From NCBI RefSeq assembly GCF_900130125.1, contig NZ_FQXY01000010.1, positions 372,001-436,000 on the forward strand: a DNA stretch of 64,000 nucleotides, written 5' to 3'. The DNA is from Bacteroides congonensis. Its GTDB lineage: Bacteria > Bacteroidota > Bacteroidia > Bacteroidales > Bacteroidaceae. The notes under the pieces are model-generated. The model made no database searches and was not told the DNA's origin. It saw only the letters and a list, made by a program, of their open reading frames with translations. Numbering within the stretch: position 1 is the stretch's first letter; each line of letters begins with the position of its first letter. The translations under genes and the position numbers were made by a program. Shown in pieces: positions 31,377 through 39,202 of the stretch.

Positions 31377-32336
31377 ATGAAACAAAAAAGTAACAGAAAT
31401 GGATTTACCGTATGTGCCCAGGCGTACTTACGGAAGCTACAAGAAGAAGGGCGCTATTCAACGGCGCATGTGTATAAGAACGCCGTCCTCTCATTCACGA
31501 AGTTCTGCAATACGCCGGGTATATCATTTGCACAAATCACCCGTGACAGTCTGAGACGATACGGCCAACACCTTCAAGAATATGGGCTACGGCCGAATAC
31601 AGTCTCTACTTATATGCGTATGTTGCGCAGCATTTACAACCGTGGCGTGGAAGCAGGTATCGCCCGCTTTATTCCCCATTTATTTCGTGACGTGTACACA
31701 GGGGTGGATGTACGACAGAAGAAAGCATTGCCGCCTGAAGAGCTGCATACGCTCCTTTACAAGACTCCCCAGTCCGAACATCTGGGCCGCACACAAGCCA
31801 TCGCACGATTGATGTTCCAGTTTTGCGGCATGCCGTTCTCGGACTTCGCTCATATCGAAAAATCAGCGTTGGAACAAAACGTCCTCAGATACAACCGTGT
31901 AAAGACAGGAACGCCCATGAGTCTTGAAATACTGGATATGTCGAAAAAGGAAATGAACAGGTTGCGCAACAACCAGTCGTCAAGAGAAAATTGCCCTGAT
32001 TATCTTTTCAATATCCTGAAAGGTGACAAGCAACGAAAAGATGAAGGTGTTTATAAAGAATACCAATCAGCACTCCGTCGGTTCAATAATCAACTGAAAA
32101 GCCTGTCGAGAGAATTGCGCCTAAAATCACCCGTCACCTCATATACTATACGACACTCCTGGGCAACAAACGCAAAGTATCAGGGAATTTCCATCGAGAT
32201 GATTAGTGAATCACTGGGACACAAATCAATCAAGACTACACAGACCTATTTGAAAGGCTTCGGATTAAAGGAAAGGACAGAAGCCAACAAATTGAATTGT
32301 TATTACATAGAATCTTATAAGAGAAGCAACCATTAA
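31377..32336 (+). CDS. Tyrosine recombinase, probable invertase of the fimbrial switch
   Basis: Site-specific recombinase of the tyrosine (phage-integrase) type with 319 residues from ATG 31377. The N-terminal SAM-like DNA-binding domain covers about residues 10-110. The catalytic domain shows the Lys strand (RYNRVKTG), the second Arg in TIRHSWAT, His in SLGHKS, and the nucleophile in TTQTYL. The place of the first catalytic Arg, usually written RGM in Bacteroides relatives, reads FCGMPF here (Cys150, codon TGC at 31824-31826). Either this subfamily differs or the enzyme is impaired. It lies beside a pair of perfect 23-base inverted repeats, so local inversion is its likely job. Confidence 0.88.
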   Translation: MKQKSNRNGFTVCAQAYLRKLQEEGRYSTAHVYKNAVLSFTKFCNTPGISFAQITRDSLRRYGQHLQEYGLRPNTVSTYMRMLRSIYNRGVEAGIARFIPHLFRDVYTGVDVRQKKALPPEELHTLLYKTPQSEHLGRTQAIARLMFQFCGMPFSDFAHIEKSALEQNVLRYNRVKTGTPMSLEILDMSKKEMNRLRNNQSSRENCPDYLFNILKGDKQRKDEGVYKEYQSALRRFNNQLKSLSRELRLKSPVTSYTIRHSWATNAKYQGISIEMISESLGHKSIKTTQTYLKGFGLKERTEANKLNCYYIESYKRSNH

Positions 32337-32370: not shown

Positions 32371-32393
32371 TCTGTTACTTCTTAGGTAACGGA
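32371..32393 (+). repeat. Left inverted repeat of the fimbrial switch (IRL)
   Basis: 23-base arm starting TCTGTTACTTC and ending GGTAACGGA, identical to the reverse complement of 32645-32667. Within the arm, GTTAC and GTAAC face each other 7 bases apart, the layout of a tyrosine-recombinase core site (two half-sites around a crossover region). Confidence 0.93.
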
Positions 32394-32644
32394 TATAAAT
32401 ATGGCACAAAGATATATAAAAAGAATCTCACATTCCAAATAAATCATATCTTATTTTATTCTTTTTCTTTGAATAAATAAAATAACAGGCAAGAACACGA
32501 AGCAGATTTCTTTCATGTTCCAACTATTTATTGCCGTCTATCAGACTAATTTTCGTCCGAAAGCATTCAAGTACATTTTATTTATAAAAGACCGCTGTCT
32601 TTTTCCTGTTTTTTCCCCGTATACATCTGTCATGATAATAAAAT
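32394..32644. promoter_or_regulatory. Invertible promoter segment, sequenced in the OFF orientation
   Basis: This 251-base segment lies between the two inverted repeats. On its minus strand TTTG (32439-32436) and TATCTTTG (32414-32407) are separated by 21 bases, a full Bacteroides promoter pointing left, away from the fimbrial genes. I find no TAnnTTTG on the + strand of the segment. Inversion would place the -7 box at 32624-32631 facing right, with a start site near 32637 and a leader of about 50 bases to the ATG at 32687. Gene-free; A/T-rich. Confidence 0.85.
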
Positions 32645-32667
32645 TCCGTTACCTAAGAAGTAACAGA
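32645..32667 (-). repeat. Right inverted repeat of the fimbrial switch (IRR)
   Basis: 23-base arm, reverse complement of 32371-32393 without a mismatch. It ends 19 bases before the first fimbrial-operon ATG, so a rightward transcript from an inverted promoter would carry it in the leader. Confidence 0.93.
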
Positions 32668-32686: not shown

Positions 32687-33358
32687 ATGACACACAAACC
32701 CGATAATATCAAATATCCATGTCTGTCCGCCAACAGCAGACGGAGACATACGACAAGCATGAGACATAGACTGACCACGCTCGTCTTTGTAGTGTGCATT
32801 ATGCCTGTATCGAATCTCTGCGGACAAAACATAGCCGTCAAAAGCAATCTGCTTTATGACCTCACCACCTCACTCAATTTAGGCGGAGAAATACGTTGTG
32901 ATGACACACATACTTTCAGCCTTTCCATCAATTACAATCCGTGGAACTTCAGCGACAACAAGAAGATGAAGCATTTCCTCGTGCAACCGGAATACCGTAA
33001 ATGGTTCAACGAAGCATTCACAGGAAGTTTTATCGGCTTACAGCTTCATTATGCCTTGTTCAATTTCGGCGGAATGCTTCCCTGGGGATTCGGAGACGGA
33101 AAGATGCTGGGTGTAGAGAACAGACAAATCGCCAATAACCGATATCAAGGCAATCTGGCGGGATTCGGCATTTCCTACGGTTACCAGTGGATGATTAGCC
33201 CGCAATGGAACCTGGAAGCGGGAATCGCTCTGGGATATGCCCACCTCAATTACAAACGCTACGGACGCTCCGCAGGCGCACCCCTGATAGAAAAATCAAA
33301 TTGCAACTACTGGGGTCCTACGCAAATAGGAATATCAGTCGTGTACTTCATCCAATAA
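32687..33358 (+). CDS. DUF3575 outer-membrane-type protein, copy 1
   Basis: Predicted exported beta-barrel-like protein of the DUF3575 family, found in Bacteroides fimbrial loci. After a signal segment (LTTLVFVVCIMPVSNLCGQ) the mature part starts with the family motif AVKSNLLYDLTTSLNLG. Paired aromatic strands follow, and the end WGPTQIGISVVYFIQ is typical. ATG 32687 gives a long hydrophilic leader. An internal ATG at 32759 (MRHRLTT) would give a normal signal peptide and may be the real start. It is first in the fimbrial operon just after the switch. Biochemical function is unknown; a role in fimbrial assembly is inferred from context. Confidence 0.82.
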   Translation: MTHKPDNIKYPCLSANSRRRHTTSMRHRLTTLVFVVCIMPVSNLCGQNIAVKSNLLYDLTTSLNLGGEIRCDDTHTFSLSINYNPWNFSDNKKMKHFLVQPEYRKWFNEAFTGSFIGLQLHYALFNFGGMLPWGFGDGKMLGVENRQIANNRYQGNLAGFGISYGYQWMISPQWNLEAGIALGYAHLNYKRYGRSAGAPLIEKSNCNYWGPTQIGISVVYFIQ

Positions 33359-33384: not shown

Positions 33385-34434
33385 ATGAAAACGAAAACAT
33401 TCATCTTGCTCGGCCTATTGATATGTAATCTGCTTCCGGCACAGAACGTCAAGCTGGATATCAAGCCCCATTTCCTGGGAGTACGGGCAGACTCATTACT
33501 CCTTTCGATGGACATATCGGTAGAAATCGAGGATATGAACCCGAAGAATGCCGTCATACTGACACCTGTCCTGACCGGACAAGACCACAGAATACTATTA
33601 CCGGCCATCCAACTGAACGGCAAGCAGAAGCAGAAATTATATTTGCGCAACCAGATACTGCGCAAGAAGAAGGGCAGTAAAGCAGACGACACTGACTATC
33701 TTGTAGCCGGTATCGACGACAGCCATTCACGCACCATCAATTACCGCACCGCATTGCCGGCAGAAAACTGGATGAACGACGCCACGCTCTATTTGAGGAG
33801 AACGATTGTCAGACCCGAAGGCGAACAGACGCTGAAAGATACGCTAATCATCGCACCGCAATATGCAGTGCTTCCGCCGGAAATGGGCAATACAGCTATT
33901 CAGGAAGTCTCCTCTGCGGCAACAGCAGACAACAGCACAACTCCTTCTGCTGCCCCGACAGGCAAAAAACCAAGGTATAAAGGTTCGTATGTCTCACCGT
34001 CATCGGATGATGTGGATATCCGCAATCAGAAAGAGTTGAACTTCAATCTCGAGGAAGCCAAGATTATGGCTGACATCAATCCGCAGATGTTATCGCTCCG
34101 CGAACTGTATACGGTAGCCTTATCATATGCGGATAATAAGGCGAAGTTTTATCAGATTATCAATATCAGCGTGAAACTGTATCCTGTACACCCCGTTGCC
34201 AACCTCAATGCGGCGGCTGCTGCCATTGAGCAGGGAGATACGAAATCCGCAAGCAAGTTTCTTTCCATGGCATTGCACGAGGGACTTGCCTACAAGAGTT
34301 GCCGGGGGGTATATGAGCTGATGACCGGAAACACATACGAAGGCATCCGCATACTGAAAGCCGCCAAGGCGGAAGGTTCTGAGGAAGCTGCATACAATCT
34401 GAATGTTTTTTTTGAAAATAATAAACGGCATTAA
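33385..34434 (+). CDS. DUF3868-type protein lacking the OmpA domain, copy 1
   Basis: Exported 349-residue protein. The N-terminal part (about residues 20-165, NVKLDIKPHFLGVRADSLLLSMDI) matches the DUF3868 layout seen in 35238-36671. The C-terminal part (about 225-345) aligns with the helical TPR-like end of that same gene product (LSLRELYTVAL, HPVANLNAAAAAIEQGDTKSA). Between them, where the other copy has an OmpA-like peptidoglycan-binding domain, stands only a short Ala/Ser/Pro linker. It therefore looks like an internally deleted paralogue. It follows DUF3575 copy 1 after 26 bases. Function is unknown. Confidence 0.8.
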   Translation: MKTKTFILLGLLICNLLPAQNVKLDIKPHFLGVRADSLLLSMDISVEIEDMNPKNAVILTPVLTGQDHRILLPAIQLNGKQKQKLYLRNQILRKKKGSKADDTDYLVAGIDDSHSRTINYRTALPAENWMNDATLYLRRTIVRPEGEQTLKDTLIIAPQYAVLPPEMGNTAIQEVSSAATADNSTTPSAAPTGKKPRYKGSYVSPSSDDVDIRNQKELNFNLEEAKIMADINPQMLSLRELYTVALSYADNKAKFYQIINISVKLYPVHPVANLNAAAAAIEQGDTKSASKFLSMALHEGLAYKSCRGVYELMTGNTYEGIRILKAAKAEGSEEAAYNLNVFFENNKRH

Positions 34435-34446
34435 CTGGTAGATACA

Positions 34447-35010
34447 ATGAGATATATTTTACTCCTGTTCCTATTATTGGGTTGTCTTGACGGTTACGCA
34501 CAGAAAGTAGCCGTCAGACTCAACACGCTTCCCGCCATTGACGGAGCTTTCGGAGCCGGAGTCTCTTATGCCATAGGGAATAAAAGCACCGTCGAACTGG
34601 CAGGAAGCCTGCGACCATGGAAACGGAGCGAGATGTACGTGAACCGTTATTGGGTGATTCAACCCGAATACAAATATTGGACTTGCCAGAAGTTTAACGG
34701 CCTGTTCTGGGGAGTTTATCTCAATGGAGCGCAATTCAATGTCGGTGGGAAAAAGCTGCCTTTCGGTATATTCTCTGACCTGAAGAAGTACCGGTATGAA
34801 GGGTGGCTTATAGGGGGCGGCATTAGTTGCGGCTACCATTGGATGCTGAACGATCATTGGAATGTGGAAACGAGCTTGGGAGTGGGATACGATTATATTC
34901 ATTATAAACAATACAACTGCGTCAGGAAATGTGCCGGAGTACGTAACAAAGGACATCATCATTACATAGGGCCTACCAAAGCCTCAATAAGTTTAGTTTA
35001 TCTATTTTAA
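34447..35010 (+). CDS. DUF3575 outer-membrane-type protein, copy 2
   Basis: 187 residues with a clear signal peptide (LLLFLLLGCLDGYAQ). The barrel-like pattern matches copy 1: AVRLNTLPAIDGAFGAGVSY, RPWKRSEMYVNRYWVIQPEYKYW, a central GVYLNGAQFNVGG, and the end YIGPTKASISLVYLF. Copy 1 has the same blocks in the same order. It begins 12 bases after DUF3868 copy 1. Paralogy with 32687-33358 indicates duplication of a two-gene module. Function is unknown beyond its fixed place in fimbrial operons. Confidence 0.83.
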   Translation: MRYILLLFLLLGCLDGYAQKVAVRLNTLPAIDGAFGAGVSYAIGNKSTVELAGSLRPWKRSEMYVNRYWVIQPEYKYWTCQKFNGLFWGVYLNGAQFNVGGKKLPFGIFSDLKKYRYEGWLIGGGISCGYHWMLNDHWNVETSLGVGYDYIHYKQYNCVRKCAGVRNKGHHHYIGPTKASISLVYLF

Positions 35011-35214: not shown

Positions 35215-35237
35215 TATTCTCACACAGAAATGAAGAA

Positions 35238-36671
35238 ATGCAGATTATTACGACAATGAAGACAGGAGGAATTTTTATTATCGCAGTCATTTTATCCCTT
35301 TCGATACAAGCCCAAAGGGCCGTAACGGAAGAGAGGGGGACTGTTCGCACAACTACTTCCAGTCTGTACAAGGCAGGGAAAGAGTTGGTGGTTTCTATTT
35401 CGATGGATATCACCCGCGACCTCTCTCCCAATGAATCAGTGGTGCTGGTTCCCGTTGTCAGTGACAGTCTGGAACACCGGTTGGAACTGCCACCCATATA
35501 TATCAACAGCCGGAAACAGCACATCGTATTCCTGCGGGAGACAGGCAGGAAAGATAAGGCAGCCCGGGCATTGCAAAGGAAAAACGGGGATAAGCAAACG
35601 ATGCATTATCTGCAATCCGTCCCATTCGAGCAATGGATGAACCAAGCTACGCTCACACTGGTAGAGAAGAGTTGCGGTTGCGGCATTCCCGGTACGGAAG
35701 ATTTCACCTGTATTGCCCGCCTGCATCCGCAATCAACGCCCGTTCCGCAACTTGCTTTCCTGACTCCGCAAGTTGAAACGTCTAAAATCAGGACGGAAAA
35801 AGGGTCGGCATTCATTGACTTTCCGGTGAATGTGACCGCTATTCATAAAGAATTCAGCAATAATGCGGCAGAGTTGGATAAAATCATCGAAACGATCAAC
35901 ACCATCAAAGGAGACAGCAACGTAAGCATCACACACATCAACATTCATGGGTATGCGTCGCCCGACGGCCCTTTCCGGATAAATGAGCGGCTGGCCCGCG
36001 AACGTACCCGTGCATTGAAGGAATATGTAGCCCGACTATATACTTTCGACAACACATACATACACACCAATTATACGCCCGAAGACTGGGAAGGCTTTGA
36101 AGCCCTTCTGGGCGACACAGTTTTTCAGGACAAGGAAGCTATCATGAAAATCGTAACAAGCAACATTCATCCCGACCGTAAAGAAGGTTTGATAAAGTCG
36201 AAGTTTCCGGCATTCTACCGTTTTGTGTTGAAACACTGGTTTGTCATACTAAGACATTCCGATTATACCATCGAATATTATGTCCGCCCCTTTACGGTGG
36301 AAGAATCTCAAAAGATATTCGATACGAATCCCAAGAACTTGAGCCTGGAAGAGATGTTCCGCCTTGCGCTCACGCATACACCGGGAAGTGAAACATACAA
36401 CAGGATATTTATGACTGCCGTACAACTGTTTCCCGATAATCCGACGGCCAACCTGAATGCCGCCTGCATAGCGTTGACGCAAAAAGACACCAAGGCTGCG
36501 GCAGGGTTTCTCGAAAAAGCCCTGCCAGTGCCGGAGACGACGCTGGCCAAAGGAGTCCTATACTTCCTTCAGACCGACTATGAAGAAGCGGAAAAGCTAT
36601 TCAGGCAAGCTAAGGACGCCGGATTGTCACAAGCGGAGGATAATTTAAAACAAGTTTTAGAACTCAAATAA
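35238..36671 (+). CDS. DUF3868/OmpA-like protein of the fimbrial operon
   Basis: Exported protein of 477 residues from ATG 35238 (another ATG at 35256 also precedes the signal segment FIIAVILSLSIQAQ). Three parts are seen. DUF3868 covers about residues 18-175. An OmpA-C-like domain (about 205-320) has ITHINIHGYASPDGP and NERLARERTRALKEYV, the peptidoglycan-binding type. A helical TPR-like end (about 355-475) closes the chain. The frame is open back to GTG 35211, overlapping the small gene before it, but ATG 35238 follows a GAAGAA site. It probably anchors the assembly machinery to the cell wall. It precedes the fimbrillin gene by 26 bases. Confidence 0.85.
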   Translation: MQIITTMKTGGIFIIAVILSLSIQAQRAVTEERGTVRTTTSSLYKAGKELVVSISMDITRDLSPNESVVLVPVVSDSLEHRLELPPIYINSRKQHIVFLRETGRKDKAARALQRKNGDKQTMHYLQSVPFEQWMNQATLTLVEKSCGCGIPGTEDFTCIARLHPQSTPVPQLAFLTPQVETSKIRTEKGSAFIDFPVNVTAIHKEFSNNAAELDKIIETINTIKGDSNVSITHINIHGYASPDGPFRINERLARERTRALKEYVARLYTFDNTYIHTNYTPEDWEGFEALLGDTVFQDKEAIMKIVTSNIHPDRKEGLIKSKFPAFYRFVLKHWFVILRHSDYTIEYYVRPFTVEESQKIFDTNPKNLSLEEMFRLALTHTPGSETYNRIFMTAVQLFPDNPTANLNAACIALTQKDTKAAAGFLEKALPVPETTLAKGVLYFLQTDYEEAEKLFRQAKDAGLSQAEDNLKQVLELK

Positions 36672-36697: not shown

Positions 36698-38191
36698 ATG
36701 AAAAGATTCACAAAGTTAGTGCCCCTGCTCTTATTTGCAGCAGTCACACAGTACAGTTGCATCAATGATGCGGATGTAGCCTTTTCCGATGAAACTCATG
36801 CGGATTCCAATGGCAACCTTGCCCTGTTCTTTGAAATCCCCAATGCAAACGGCACCCGTAGCGCCGAATCATCGGGCATAACCGAAACAGGTTCAAAAGA
36901 GGAGTATGCAGTAAAAAGCCTGACAATCTATCTGTTCGACTCAACCACCAAAACTCTTAAAGACCAGCAGGAACTGAAGAATATCCAACAGATTAAAGCG
37001 GACTTAGAAGAGATAAAGTACACTGCCGACAAGATTACCGTGAATCCGGGCACCTACAATATCTTCGCCATTGCCAACGGAAAGGCCGTCACCGGAGATA
37101 TCAGCACGCAGGATGCTTTCCTGAATGCTGTCGACGGCATTACATACAGCGAAGGAAAGATTCCAAGCGTACCTGCAAGTGGATTCGTAATGACAAACCG
37201 CGGTGCGGCCAATCTGAACGTGGAAGTAAAGAAGCCGACTGATTCCGACAAGGTGACCAGTGTATCTATCGGCCTGGAACGTGCTGTTGCCAAAATTGAA
37301 CTGACACAAAAACAGGAAACTTTCCCATTGAAAGACCCTGCCGGAAAGGTTTATTGCACCATCAAGCTCAACAACTTCAGAATGTTGAATCTGGCAACAC
37401 AGTTCTATACCTTCCGTCACACCGCCGTTCTGAATGATTTCCAGGAACCCGGCTCATACACAAATGAGAACTTCGGTGACATCAACGACAACAACGGTTA
37501 TGCAATCGACCCCTATTTCTTCAAGAAAACAGTGGAAGGCGCCAAAGATTTCACCAATGCCGACGGATTCTTTGCACAGGCATTAGTAGATCTGGATATC
37601 AACGACAGCAATTGGGCAGGCATGGCACAAGCGGGTAGCTGGTCACATGTCTACTGTCTGGAGAACTGTATGTTCGTCAATGCACAATTAAATGCATACA
37701 GCACAGGAGTGATGTTTAAAGCGAACATGGACATTGCCACCGACCGCGTTTTCGATGAAAACGGTGACAACATAAGCAATCCTTCCAACTGGCCGTCCAA
37801 GATGTTCTACTTCAATTACAATTTCTACACCAGTGTAGACGCTATCCGCAAACAGGTTCTGAATAATCTTCCGGAAGACATCACTGACGATTCGGCTACG
37901 GAAATCCTTGCCGAATACAGCATCAAACGTTTCCAGAAGACGGAAAATTACTCATGCTACTACAACTACTGGATCAAGCACGAAGATAACAACTCTACAG
38001 AAATGGGTGTAATGGAATTCGGCATCGTCCGCAATAATATCTATCGTCTGTCTATCAGCAAAGTAGCGGGACTCGGCAGCGGAGAACCTTACATCGAACC
38101 GGAACAACCGGACGAATACAAAGCCGAACTGGATATCAATATCAATGTTTTTCCATGGGCCGTACGTAATCAAGATGTAGAACTTGAATAA
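36698..38191 (+). CDS. Mfa1-like major fimbrillin
   Basis: Structural subunit of a type V (FimA/Mfa1-type) fimbria, exported as a lipoprotein and matured at the surface. The lipobox ends at QYSC (Cys21). The N-terminal half has the FimA fold pattern (VKSLTIYLFDSTTKTL, NPGTYNIFAIANG, VSIGLERAVAKIEL). The C-terminal half has the typical Mfa1 end (MEFGIVRNNIYRLSISKVAGLG, then a Pro/Glu stretch and a terminal strand NINVFPWAV). An Arg at residue 54 (NGTRSAE) could be the processing site that exposes the groove for donor-strand exchange; that is inference from the Porphyromonas model. 497 residues, normal for the family. Confidence 0.9.
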   Translation: MKRFTKLVPLLLFAAVTQYSCINDADVAFSDETHADSNGNLALFFEIPNANGTRSAESSGITETGSKEEYAVKSLTIYLFDSTTKTLKDQQELKNIQQIKADLEEIKYTADKITVNPGTYNIFAIANGKAVTGDISTQDAFLNAVDGITYSEGKIPSVPASGFVMTNRGAANLNVEVKKPTDSDKVTSVSIGLERAVAKIELTQKQETFPLKDPAGKVYCTIKLNNFRMLNLATQFYTFRHTAVLNDFQEPGSYTNENFGDINDNNGYAIDPYFFKKTVEGAKDFTNADGFFAQALVDLDINDSNWAGMAQAGSWSHVYCLENCMFVNAQLNAYSTGVMFKANMDIATDRVFDENGDNISNPSNWPSKMFYFNYNFYTSVDAIRKQVLNNLPEDITDDSATEILAEYSIKRFQKTENYSCYYNYWIKHEDNNSTEMGVMEFGIVRNNIYRLSISKVAGLGSGEPYIEPEQPDEYKAELDININVFPWAVRNQDVELE

Positions 38192-38224: not shown

Positions 38225-39202
38225 ATGCGTTCATTTCTACTACATATTATTTGCGTTGTCGCGCTGTTCTCGTCCTGTGACTGGGTGAACGATGACTTGT
38301 CAGACTGTCCGACAGGAACCTGGCTGAAAATCTCGTACACCTACAACATCCTGAACGTGGACGCCGCGCCTACGCAAGTAGGCGACATCACCATTCTTGC
38401 CTTCGACAAGAACGACAAGTATGTGGACCGACTGGACGTAGACAGTATAACATTACATCAAAGCTACTGCATGGTAAGAGTGCCGTTTCCCGCCGGGACT
38501 TATCACCTGCTCATATGGGGAGGAGCATCCGACTATCCGTACCAGCTCCCAAATCTCAAAGCTGAACGGACGGAACGGAAATCCCTGAACATATCGCTGG
38601 CATGTGACGAGAAGAACCAGTCCGACAGGAAACTAAACGCGCTCTTTCACAGTAGCCTTGAAAATATTACTATCAGTGAGGAATATCAGGTCGTCACCGC
38701 CGAACTGGTTAAAAACACGAATTATTTCTCGTGTATCCTTCAGGATGAAGACAATCTCCCCCTGCAACAGGAGGACTTCGCCTTCACTTTGGAATCCGCC
38801 AACGGCGTAATAGACTATACAAATACTCCTGTCGACGCGACTCCGGTCTGTTATCTGCCGTATCGGCAGGAAGTGTCTGTAATGTCCGGACAGATTCCCG
38901 TCATCCATGCCAGATTAAATACACTGCGCATCATGAAGGGAGACGATACGACATTGTCAATAAAGCATATACCCAGCGGACAGGTGATCCTGCGCCTGCC
39001 ACTCACCCAATATTTATTGTTATCAAAAATCTATCCCGATAATATAGGTGATATAGGCGACCAGGAATATCTTGACCGGCAGGATTCTTACACTCTCCTG
39101 TTCTTCATCAAGTCGTCAACTACGGGAATCCCGCGGATATGTCCGAAAATGAAAGTAAACGGGTGGAGTATACGGCTGAATGATTCCGAACTGGAGTCGT
39201 AA
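38225..39202 (+). CDS. Mfa2/FimB-like fimbrial anchor lipoprotein
   Basis: 325-residue lipoprotein (Cys18 in LFSSCDW) of the FimB/Mfa2 family. It starts with the family's Cys-rich segment LSDCPTGTWLKISYTYN, followed by the strand GDITILAFDKNDKYVD, and has two beta-sandwich domains. In Porphyromonas such proteins anchor the fimbria to the outer membrane and set its length. It lies 33 bases after the fimbrillin and is the last gene before a terminator. No extra tip genes (mfa3-5 type) are seen, so the organelle would be of minimal composition. Confidence 0.88.
   Translation: MRSFLLHIICVVALFSSCDWVNDDLSDCPTGTWLKISYTYNILNVDAAPTQVGDITILAFDKNDKYVDRLDVDSITLHQSYCMVRVPFPAGTYHLLIWGGASDYPYQLPNLKAERTERKSLNISLACDEKNQSDRKLNALFHSSLENITISEEYQVVTAELVKNTNYFSCILQDEDNLPLQQEDFAFTLESANGVIDYTNTPVDATPVCYLPYRQEVSVMSGQIPVIHARLNTLRIMKGDDTTLSIKHIPSGQVILRLPLTQYLLLSKIYPDNIGDIGDQEYLDRQDSYTLLFFIKSSTTGIPRICPKMKVNGWSIRLNDSELES

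Follow-up and report, generated by a model that had tools for sequence, protein, structure and literature searches.

A probable promoter-inversion switch at a fimbrial operon of Bacteroides congonensis shares its site core with presumed capsule switches

Introduction

In Escherichia coli the promoter of a fimbrial operon lies on the element fimS and is flipped by two recombinases, FimB and FimE. For Bacteroides fragilis, Weinacht reportedly described in 2004 a locus of phase-variable aggregation and of an outer surface protein. Mpi of B. fragilis inverts 13 regions and Tsr19 inverts local as well as distant promoters (PMC4747536). Inversions affect capsule, surface protein, EPS and SusCD genes, and one protein encoded at the phase-variable aggregation locus of B. 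fragilis has a match to a fimbrial N-terminus (PMC12632263). Groups of invertons have been linked to groups of invertases, and the two may have evolved together (PMC11892184); the invertons of B. thetaiotaomicron have been mapped (PMC10994844).

Here we describe a locus from B. congonensis within a stretch of 64,000 nucleotides (contig NZ_FQXY01000010.1, positions 372,001–436,000; henceforth the window). The closest described systems are found at Bacteroides capsule (CPS) loci whose first gene is UpxY-like: their invertible promoters have the same 17-bp site core, a similar segment length and promoter position and an adjacent convergent recombinase, and the ATG likewise follows the 16-base site after 23–25 nt; four such modules are present in the same genome. 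The fimbrial module differs from them by its DUF3575/DUF3868/Mfa operon, which has no NusG-like first gene, and by a hairpin of its own in the segment. The Mpi and Tsr systems of B. fragilis are alike in the tyrosine recombinase, the invertible promoters, the surface structures concerned and the −7 box TAnnTTTG. As in fimS, a tyrosine recombinase would flip the promoter before a fimbrial operon. However, the pilus type and the promoter class differ, and one recombinase is found here whereas two stand beside the switch in E. coli.

The switch belongs to a well-known kind. What the present analysis adds is the site core common with capsule switches, a nine-to-one excess of the OFF orientation, a dyad at a fixed position and a recombinase that lacks the box I arginine. 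We are highly confident that the fimbrial locus is a phase-variation switch of the Bacteroides type in which the adjacent recombinase inverts the promoter of the pilus operon. Surface fibres could accordingly be switched on and off in this gut Bacteroides, with the segment in the window standing in the off position.

Recombination sites and promoter

The elements of the switch are the following (positions in the window):

31377–32336, plus strand: tyrosine recombinase of 319 aa, the presumed local invertase (PF13102 and PF00589), convergent with the segment
32371–32393, plus strand: left recombination site TCTGTTAC-TTCTTAG-GTAACGGA, a 23-nt perfect inverted repeat whose 17-bp core recurs at four other pairs in the genome
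32394–32644, no strand: putative invertible segment of 251 bp; the repeats are seen directly, inversion is observed among sibling modules only
32407–32439, minus strand: promoter TTTG-N21-TATCTTTGT, facing the recombinase (OFF); after inversion at 32599–32631 on the plus strand
32493–32520, minus strand: dyad GAACACGAA-N10-TTCATGTTC, upstream of the promoter, readable as a hairpin or terminator on the promoter strand
32586–32603, plus strand: hairpin AAAAGAC-CGCT-GTCTTTT, then a T-rich tract on the plus strand; fold z-score −3.4 on the plus and −3.3 on the minus strand
32645–32667, plus strand: right recombination site TCCGTTAC-CTAAGAA-GTAACAGA, a 23-nt perfect inverted repeat, identical in five aligned sequences

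The two repeats had been pointed out in an earlier note on this DNA, and their coordinates and 100% complementarity over 23 nt each, with 251 nt between them, are confirmed. They form the longest exact inverted repeat within 1 kb across the whole window, and eight dinucleotide shuffles of the window gave at most 12–14 nt. Each repeat is itself dyadic, GTTAC-N7-GTAAC, around an asymmetric middle (CTAAGAA), which is the form one would expect of a tyrosine recombinase site. In an alignment the right repeat is identical in the window, G009, G021, G001 C60 and G059, and differs by one base in L102, the second copy of B. faecis. Arm matches arm perfectly in the window, L088, L092 and L102, with a mismatch of 1 base in L105 (B. 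faecis) and of 2 bases in L121 (G021).

The promoter is on the minus strand and consists of the −33 box TTTG (32439–32436) and the −7 box TATCTTTG (32414–32407) with a spacer of 21 nt. It is the single match to TTTG-N19-22-TAnnTTTG on both strands between the recombinase stop and the first ATG, where 0.008 would be expected per shuffled segment. Hence it points off the operon and this pattern scan finds none that faces the operon, just as the earlier note had it. The −7 box is followed by T and thus fits the published consensus TANNTTTGY (PMC12632263). Among the fimbrial-type segments the conserved columns include CAAAGATATA and CCAAA, that is, the promoter boxes in reverse. A scan for E. coli-type sigma-70 promoters found none, as is expected for the genus; the sole terminator-like match of the E. 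coli-type scan is the right repeat itself.

Inversion would map 32407–32414 to 32624–32631, the place that had been predicted for the flipped −7 box. If transcription starts about 7 nt downstream of the box, the ATG at 32687 would by simple arithmetic be preceded by about 50 nt of leader, again as predicted.

The fimbrial operon

Downstream of the right site six genes follow on the plus strand:

32687–33358, plus strand: DUF3575 protein, operon gene 1 (PF12099, E 1e-62), with 19 nt from the 23-bp repeat to the ATG
33385–34434, plus strand: DUF3868 protein (PF12984)
34447–35010, plus strand: second DUF3575 protein (PF12099)
35226–36671, plus strand: DUF3868-like or TPR protein, a weak assignment (PF12984 at 24.7 bits for a cut-off of 27; TPR also below cut-off)
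36698–38191, plus strand: Mfa1-family fimbrial major subunit (NF038041 at 220 bits for a cut-off of 130; Fimbrillin_C, P_gingi_FimA)
38225–39202, plus strand: Mfa2-family fimbrial anchor (PF08842, E 4e-73)

Pfam and NCBIfam thus bear out the gene order, with the segment lying between a tyrosine recombinase and a fimbrial operon. Judged by its genes for a stalk fimbrillin and an Mfa2-type anchor, the six-gene operon is predicted to be a type V (FimA/Mfa) pilus operon. The first fimbrial gene has orthologs with 73–85% identity in 5 of the 157 other genomes (158 genomes searched), the next match having 53%.

Related modules in the same genome

The assembly from which the window was taken (6.37 Mb, 11 contigs) was searched for further sites. 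The exact 17-base core GTTACCTAAGAAGTAAC is found at five pairs: that of the window, one on C1, two on C7 and one on C9. Four more pairs have a variant core (CTAGGAA once, CTACAAA three times), and there are two single sites, one of them with two mismatches. Every pair has a recombinase nearby, and the identity to the recombinase in the window is 62–72% at the other same-core pairs and 36–42% at the variant pairs.

In three of the four other same-core modules (L025, L026 and L028) the first gene encodes a NusG domain (PF02357), which we take to be that of the UpxY proteins of capsule loci; the fourth module, L029, has a similar first gene by three-frame reading. UpxY proteins are named for capsule loci in PMC12632263. 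We therefore read the four modules, by their gene content, as putative capsule switches. As the pilus operon has the same site core as these four loci of the cell, pili and capsule could be switched by related and possibly cross-acting recombinases.

The recombinases of the variant-core pairs (L030, L031, L032 and L033) retain an arginine in box I. L030 and L033 precede large proteins with a KDYDDD motif that have no Pfam match, and L031 precedes a coiled-coil-like protein. TAnnTTTG is absent from three of these four segments, and the dyad pattern described below from all four. A single copy of the site with the 7-bp core CGAAGAA is found at L027:8807-8823 (G000 C7:873806-873822), 22 nt upstream of a gene that resembles the NusG-type first genes. 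In this 17-kb locus neither a partner site nor a relative of the recombinase was found, and this capsule locus may have lost its switch.

Modules across the genus

For a survey of the genus we searched 158 genomes, one per species, with exact patterns for the site pair, so that a module with any mismatch in either 16-base site is missed. In total 74 modules were found in 19 of the 158 genomes, five of them in the genome of the window. The inner spacing is 235–265 in 62 modules (main modules), 205–234 in four, 175–204 in six and 266–295 in two. A convergent recombinase adjoins each of the 74 modules.

The modules are built alike. In the 60 main modules with a readable promoter the −7 box that pairs with a −33 box ends 31–33 bp from the 16-base site, counted from the outer end of the site. 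The spacer measures 21 throughout except in L135, which has 20; many modules have TTTG as −33 box and others just TTG. Over the 62 main modules 11–50 bp separate the recombinase stop from the 16-base site, and in 48 of them the ATG of a frame of at least 80 codons lies 23–25 nt past this site. The remaining 14 comprise one that is cut by a contig end and operons that start otherwise.

Behind the modules we find NusG-first capsule loci, pilus operons and a YjbH-type operon, the latter with PF06082 in both first genes of L116 and with L093, L103 and others alike by sequence. In L099 a large surface protein, by our reading, stands behind the module. The 16-base site also adjoins recombinases of just 38–39% identity (L099, L185 and L186), and therefore the core and the recombinase clade are not strictly tied.

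In capsule modules such as L131, L133, L119 and others the recombinase side, the segment and the operon side differ in their closest relatives, which looks as though modules had undergone recombination at the sites or close to them. Segment lengths cluster at 235, 243–247, 275–278, 283–291 and 297–298, and some of these groups are about one helical turn apart. We make no claim of helical phasing: at 10.5 bp the 19 distinct lengths give a modest score of 0.486, they are not independent values, and over all 74 modules a period of 13 bp (0.632) does equally well as one of 10.5 bp (0.639).

Orientation of the segments

The promoter is readable in 70 of the 74 modules and points toward the recombinase (OFF) in 63 and away from it (ON) in seven; these counts are not independent because the modules are related, some being nearly identical. 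In the ON copies the promoter is directed toward the operon. Two pairs of orthologs have their segments in opposite orientation. L029, a capsule module in the genome of the window, is ON, and its core is 96.9% identical to that of L111 (G065, OFF) when flipped and 55.4% unflipped, with flanks of 89.0% and 98.4% identity. Likewise the cores of L096 (ON) and L115 (OFF) are 95.3% identical flipped and 58.0% unflipped, with flanks of 95.0% and 92.8%; in both comparisons 100 bp on the left and 250 bp on the right were compared unflipped. As the flanks keep their orientation, these sibling orthologs, one of them in the genome of the window, are direct evidence that the module class inverts. The ON/OFF meaning that the earlier note had proposed is supported by these siblings.

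The fimbrial-type copies with both repeats are OFF in six of six cases (the window, L088 of B. acidifaciens, L092, L121, and L105 and L102 of B. faecis), and among these six from 158 genomes, one per species, no ON copy was found. The opposite orientation, which the earlier note had suggested to look for elsewhere, was thus met in the sibling modules (7 of 70 ON) but not in the fimbrial module itself, and inversion at this very locus therefore appears probable by analogy. The absence of an ON copy among six is unremarkable given seven in 70 overall and gives no positive support. In G059, the sixth genome in which the operon is present, the contig of 16742 bases that holds the operon breaks off precisely where the right repeat has its inner edge, and where mixed orientations would break an assembly; this is suggestive only, because the assembly is 71% complete and fragmented and a coincidence is possible.

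One could argue from the six OFF copies, from the arms that have drifted by one or two bases in two of them and from L102, which stands without the operon, that the locus is a former switch now fixed OFF and that the fimbrial operon either is silent or is driven from another place. We consider this very improbable, as the window, L088 and L092 have kept perfect repeats and an intact promoter at a synonymous divergence of at least 0.7 and the recombinase has a dN/dS of about 0.06; the contig end in G059 also speaks for a switch that still inverts.

In L102 (L102:1-12288, G001 C38) a fimbrial-type recombinase and segment are found without a fimbrial operon, the next genes looking unrelated; it is perhaps a leftover switch.

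The recombinase

The recombinase in the window has the domains Phage_int_SAM_5 (PF13102, E 6e-19) and Phage_integrase (PF00589, E 3e-13). Its dN/dS is 0.062 against L088 and 0.056 against L092, dS being saturated against L121 and L105, and these values point to strong purifying selection.

For the active site we aligned 66 recombinases, those of the 62 main modules and the four variant-core paralogs of the same genome, and read the canonical catalytic positions ourselves from an alignment to 4a8e. The lysine, the box II arginine, the last histidine and the tyrosine are invariant in all 66. By contrast to the canonical residues, the box I arginine position is proline or serine and the box II histidine position is tyrosine in all 66. 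Three residues before the canonical arginine position, box I has an arginine in the four variant-core paralogs and in L099, and in the others cysteine (59 of 61) or serine (2 of 61). The arginine of a YxRxKT motif, invariant in 66 of 66, is a candidate substitute for the box I arginine. According to PMC8138268 (section 11) the box I arginine is missing in some integrases of the IntCTnDOT group, and in IntCTnDOT another, downstream arginine substitutes for it. With this precedent, and as modules of the same class invert, loss of the box I arginine is compatible with activity.

Since five loci of the genome have one and the same site core, the switch could be real and yet be operated mostly in trans, by one of the paralogous recombinases that belong to the capsule loci. 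The 62–72% identity of these recombinases to that of the window would fit with this, as would the occurrence of the 16-base site beside recombinases of 38–39% identity and the action of B. fragilis invertases on local and distant regions (PMC4747536). Nevertheless, all 74 modules have kept a recombinase of their own, and the purifying selection on the fimbrial recombinase is unexpected if a paralog did the work alone. We thus regard switching mainly in trans as rather unlikely and suggest that the adjacent recombinase is the actor.

We had also considered a half-site at the start of the recombinase gene (31385–31397) as an autoregulatory site; this was dropped, as GTAAC is missing there in L088, L092, L105 and L121.

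Dyad and hairpin in the segment

Besides the promoter the segments have a second conserved element. The centre of a dyad GAACATGAA-N-TTCATGTTC lies 113.5–118 bp from the inner edge of the promoter-side 16-base site in 59 of the 60 main segments and at 104.5 in L128 (L099 and L104, with unreadable promoters, are excluded). The pattern with at least 7 of 10 pairs occurs at 104–119 in 60/60 segments, where dinucleotide shuffles gave 0.03 per 60 (0.77 anywhere in the segment); this control is somewhat favourable because the pattern was widened after the segments had been viewed. In the 12 modules outside the spacing of 235–265, counted separately, it occurs seven times (7 of the 10 with a readable promoter).

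Several features of the dyad distinguish the two strands. In 33 distinct arm pairs the non-Watson–Crick pairs are 35 times C·A on the plus strand of the OFF state, which is G·U on the promoter strand, versus 12 times G·U on the plus strand, with 20 other mismatches; the bias of the wobble pairs to the promoter strand has a one-sided binomial value of 0.0005 from which relatedness was not removed. A run of at least five A within 14 nt to the left of the dyad, giving U after the hairpin on the promoter strand, is present in 46/60 segments versus 19/60 for the mirror case. The better fold of this region is that of the promoter strand in 46/60 segments and that of the plus strand in 13/60. A strict terminator search in the 60 segments, against one mononucleotide shuffle each, yielded a small excess (11 versus 5 on the plus and 9 versus 3 on the minus strand).

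These features suggest that the dyad is perhaps a terminator on the promoter strand, which in the ON state would stop transcripts from the recombinase gene before they reach the promoter. Alternatively, it may be read as a protein-binding dyad at a fixed distance.

The hairpin at 32586–32603 has 90.5% of its cells paired in six fimbrial-type segments. Compared with column shuffles, neither the pairing (284 of 500 shuffles as high) nor the covariation (165 of 500) is above chance, and the strict terminator scan did not pick it up. Its assignment as a terminator relies on the folding energy, the conservation and the T-rich tract only, because the pair counts are null and both strands fold alike. 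On these grounds it might block read-through toward the operon in the OFF state.

Proposed mode of switching

We propose that the 23-bp sites, with two 8-bp half-sites each around the 7-bp asymmetric core CTAAGAA, are bound by the adjacent tyrosine recombinase, which would invert the 251 bp between them; these carry one −33/−7 promoter near one end. In the ON state the promoter would point rightward and drive the Mfa-type pilus operon from a start some 50 nt ahead of the DUF3575 gene. When OFF, as in the window, the promoter points leftward and faces the 3′ end of the recombinase gene, and the operon would be left undriven. Whichever way the segment lies, its hairpins may stop transcripts that come from the recombinase gene.

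The OFF promoter could also have a job of its own, if an antisense transcript over the recombinase gene lowered the amount of recombinase and so stabilised the OFF state. The geometry would allow it, since the OFF promoter faces the 3′ end of the recombinase gene, and in the 62 main modules the stop of that gene is only 11–50 bp away from the 16-base site. Terminator-like elements between promoter and stop occur in just 5/62, each formed by the site's own dyad, but even this is above the 0.45 expected by shuffling. On the antisense strand of the last 300 bp of the gene none was found versus 7.8 expected, although coding sequence is poorly controlled for by mononucleotide shuffling. The 63 OFF versus seven ON modules would fit as well; however, such a bias would equally be expected if few of a cell's several capsule loci were expressed, and the geometry may be inherited and not selected. 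We therefore think it doubtful that the OFF promoter acts in this way.

Going further, bias and insulation could be built into the module, with an antisense latch in the OFF state and a terminator at a fixed position in the ON state, so that operons for capsule, pili and other surface structures would share one design and one core while each has a recombinase to itself. We put this forward as a speculation from sequence comparison, and an improbable one. Neither the fixed dyad nor antisense transcription from OFF promoters was found described in the open-licence literature, of which parts were seen in a search aimed at neither subject alone. The 74 modules constitute a test set for the question why OFF exceeds ON by about nine to one in assemblies and for the role of the conserved dyad upstream of the promoter.

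Distant relatives of the recombinase

The genome has further relatives of the recombinase gene. One at G000 C8:294882-295748 is 39% identical to that of the window, and its contig has no such site motif with up to two mismatches. Two distant relatives, at C7:883810-884712 and C7:347059-347949 of G000, have 31% and 30% identity and stop codons inside the match and are likely decayed copies. Relatives with 33–66% identity are also found on 12 plasmid records from Bacteroides, Parabacteroides, Phocaeicola and Alistipes.
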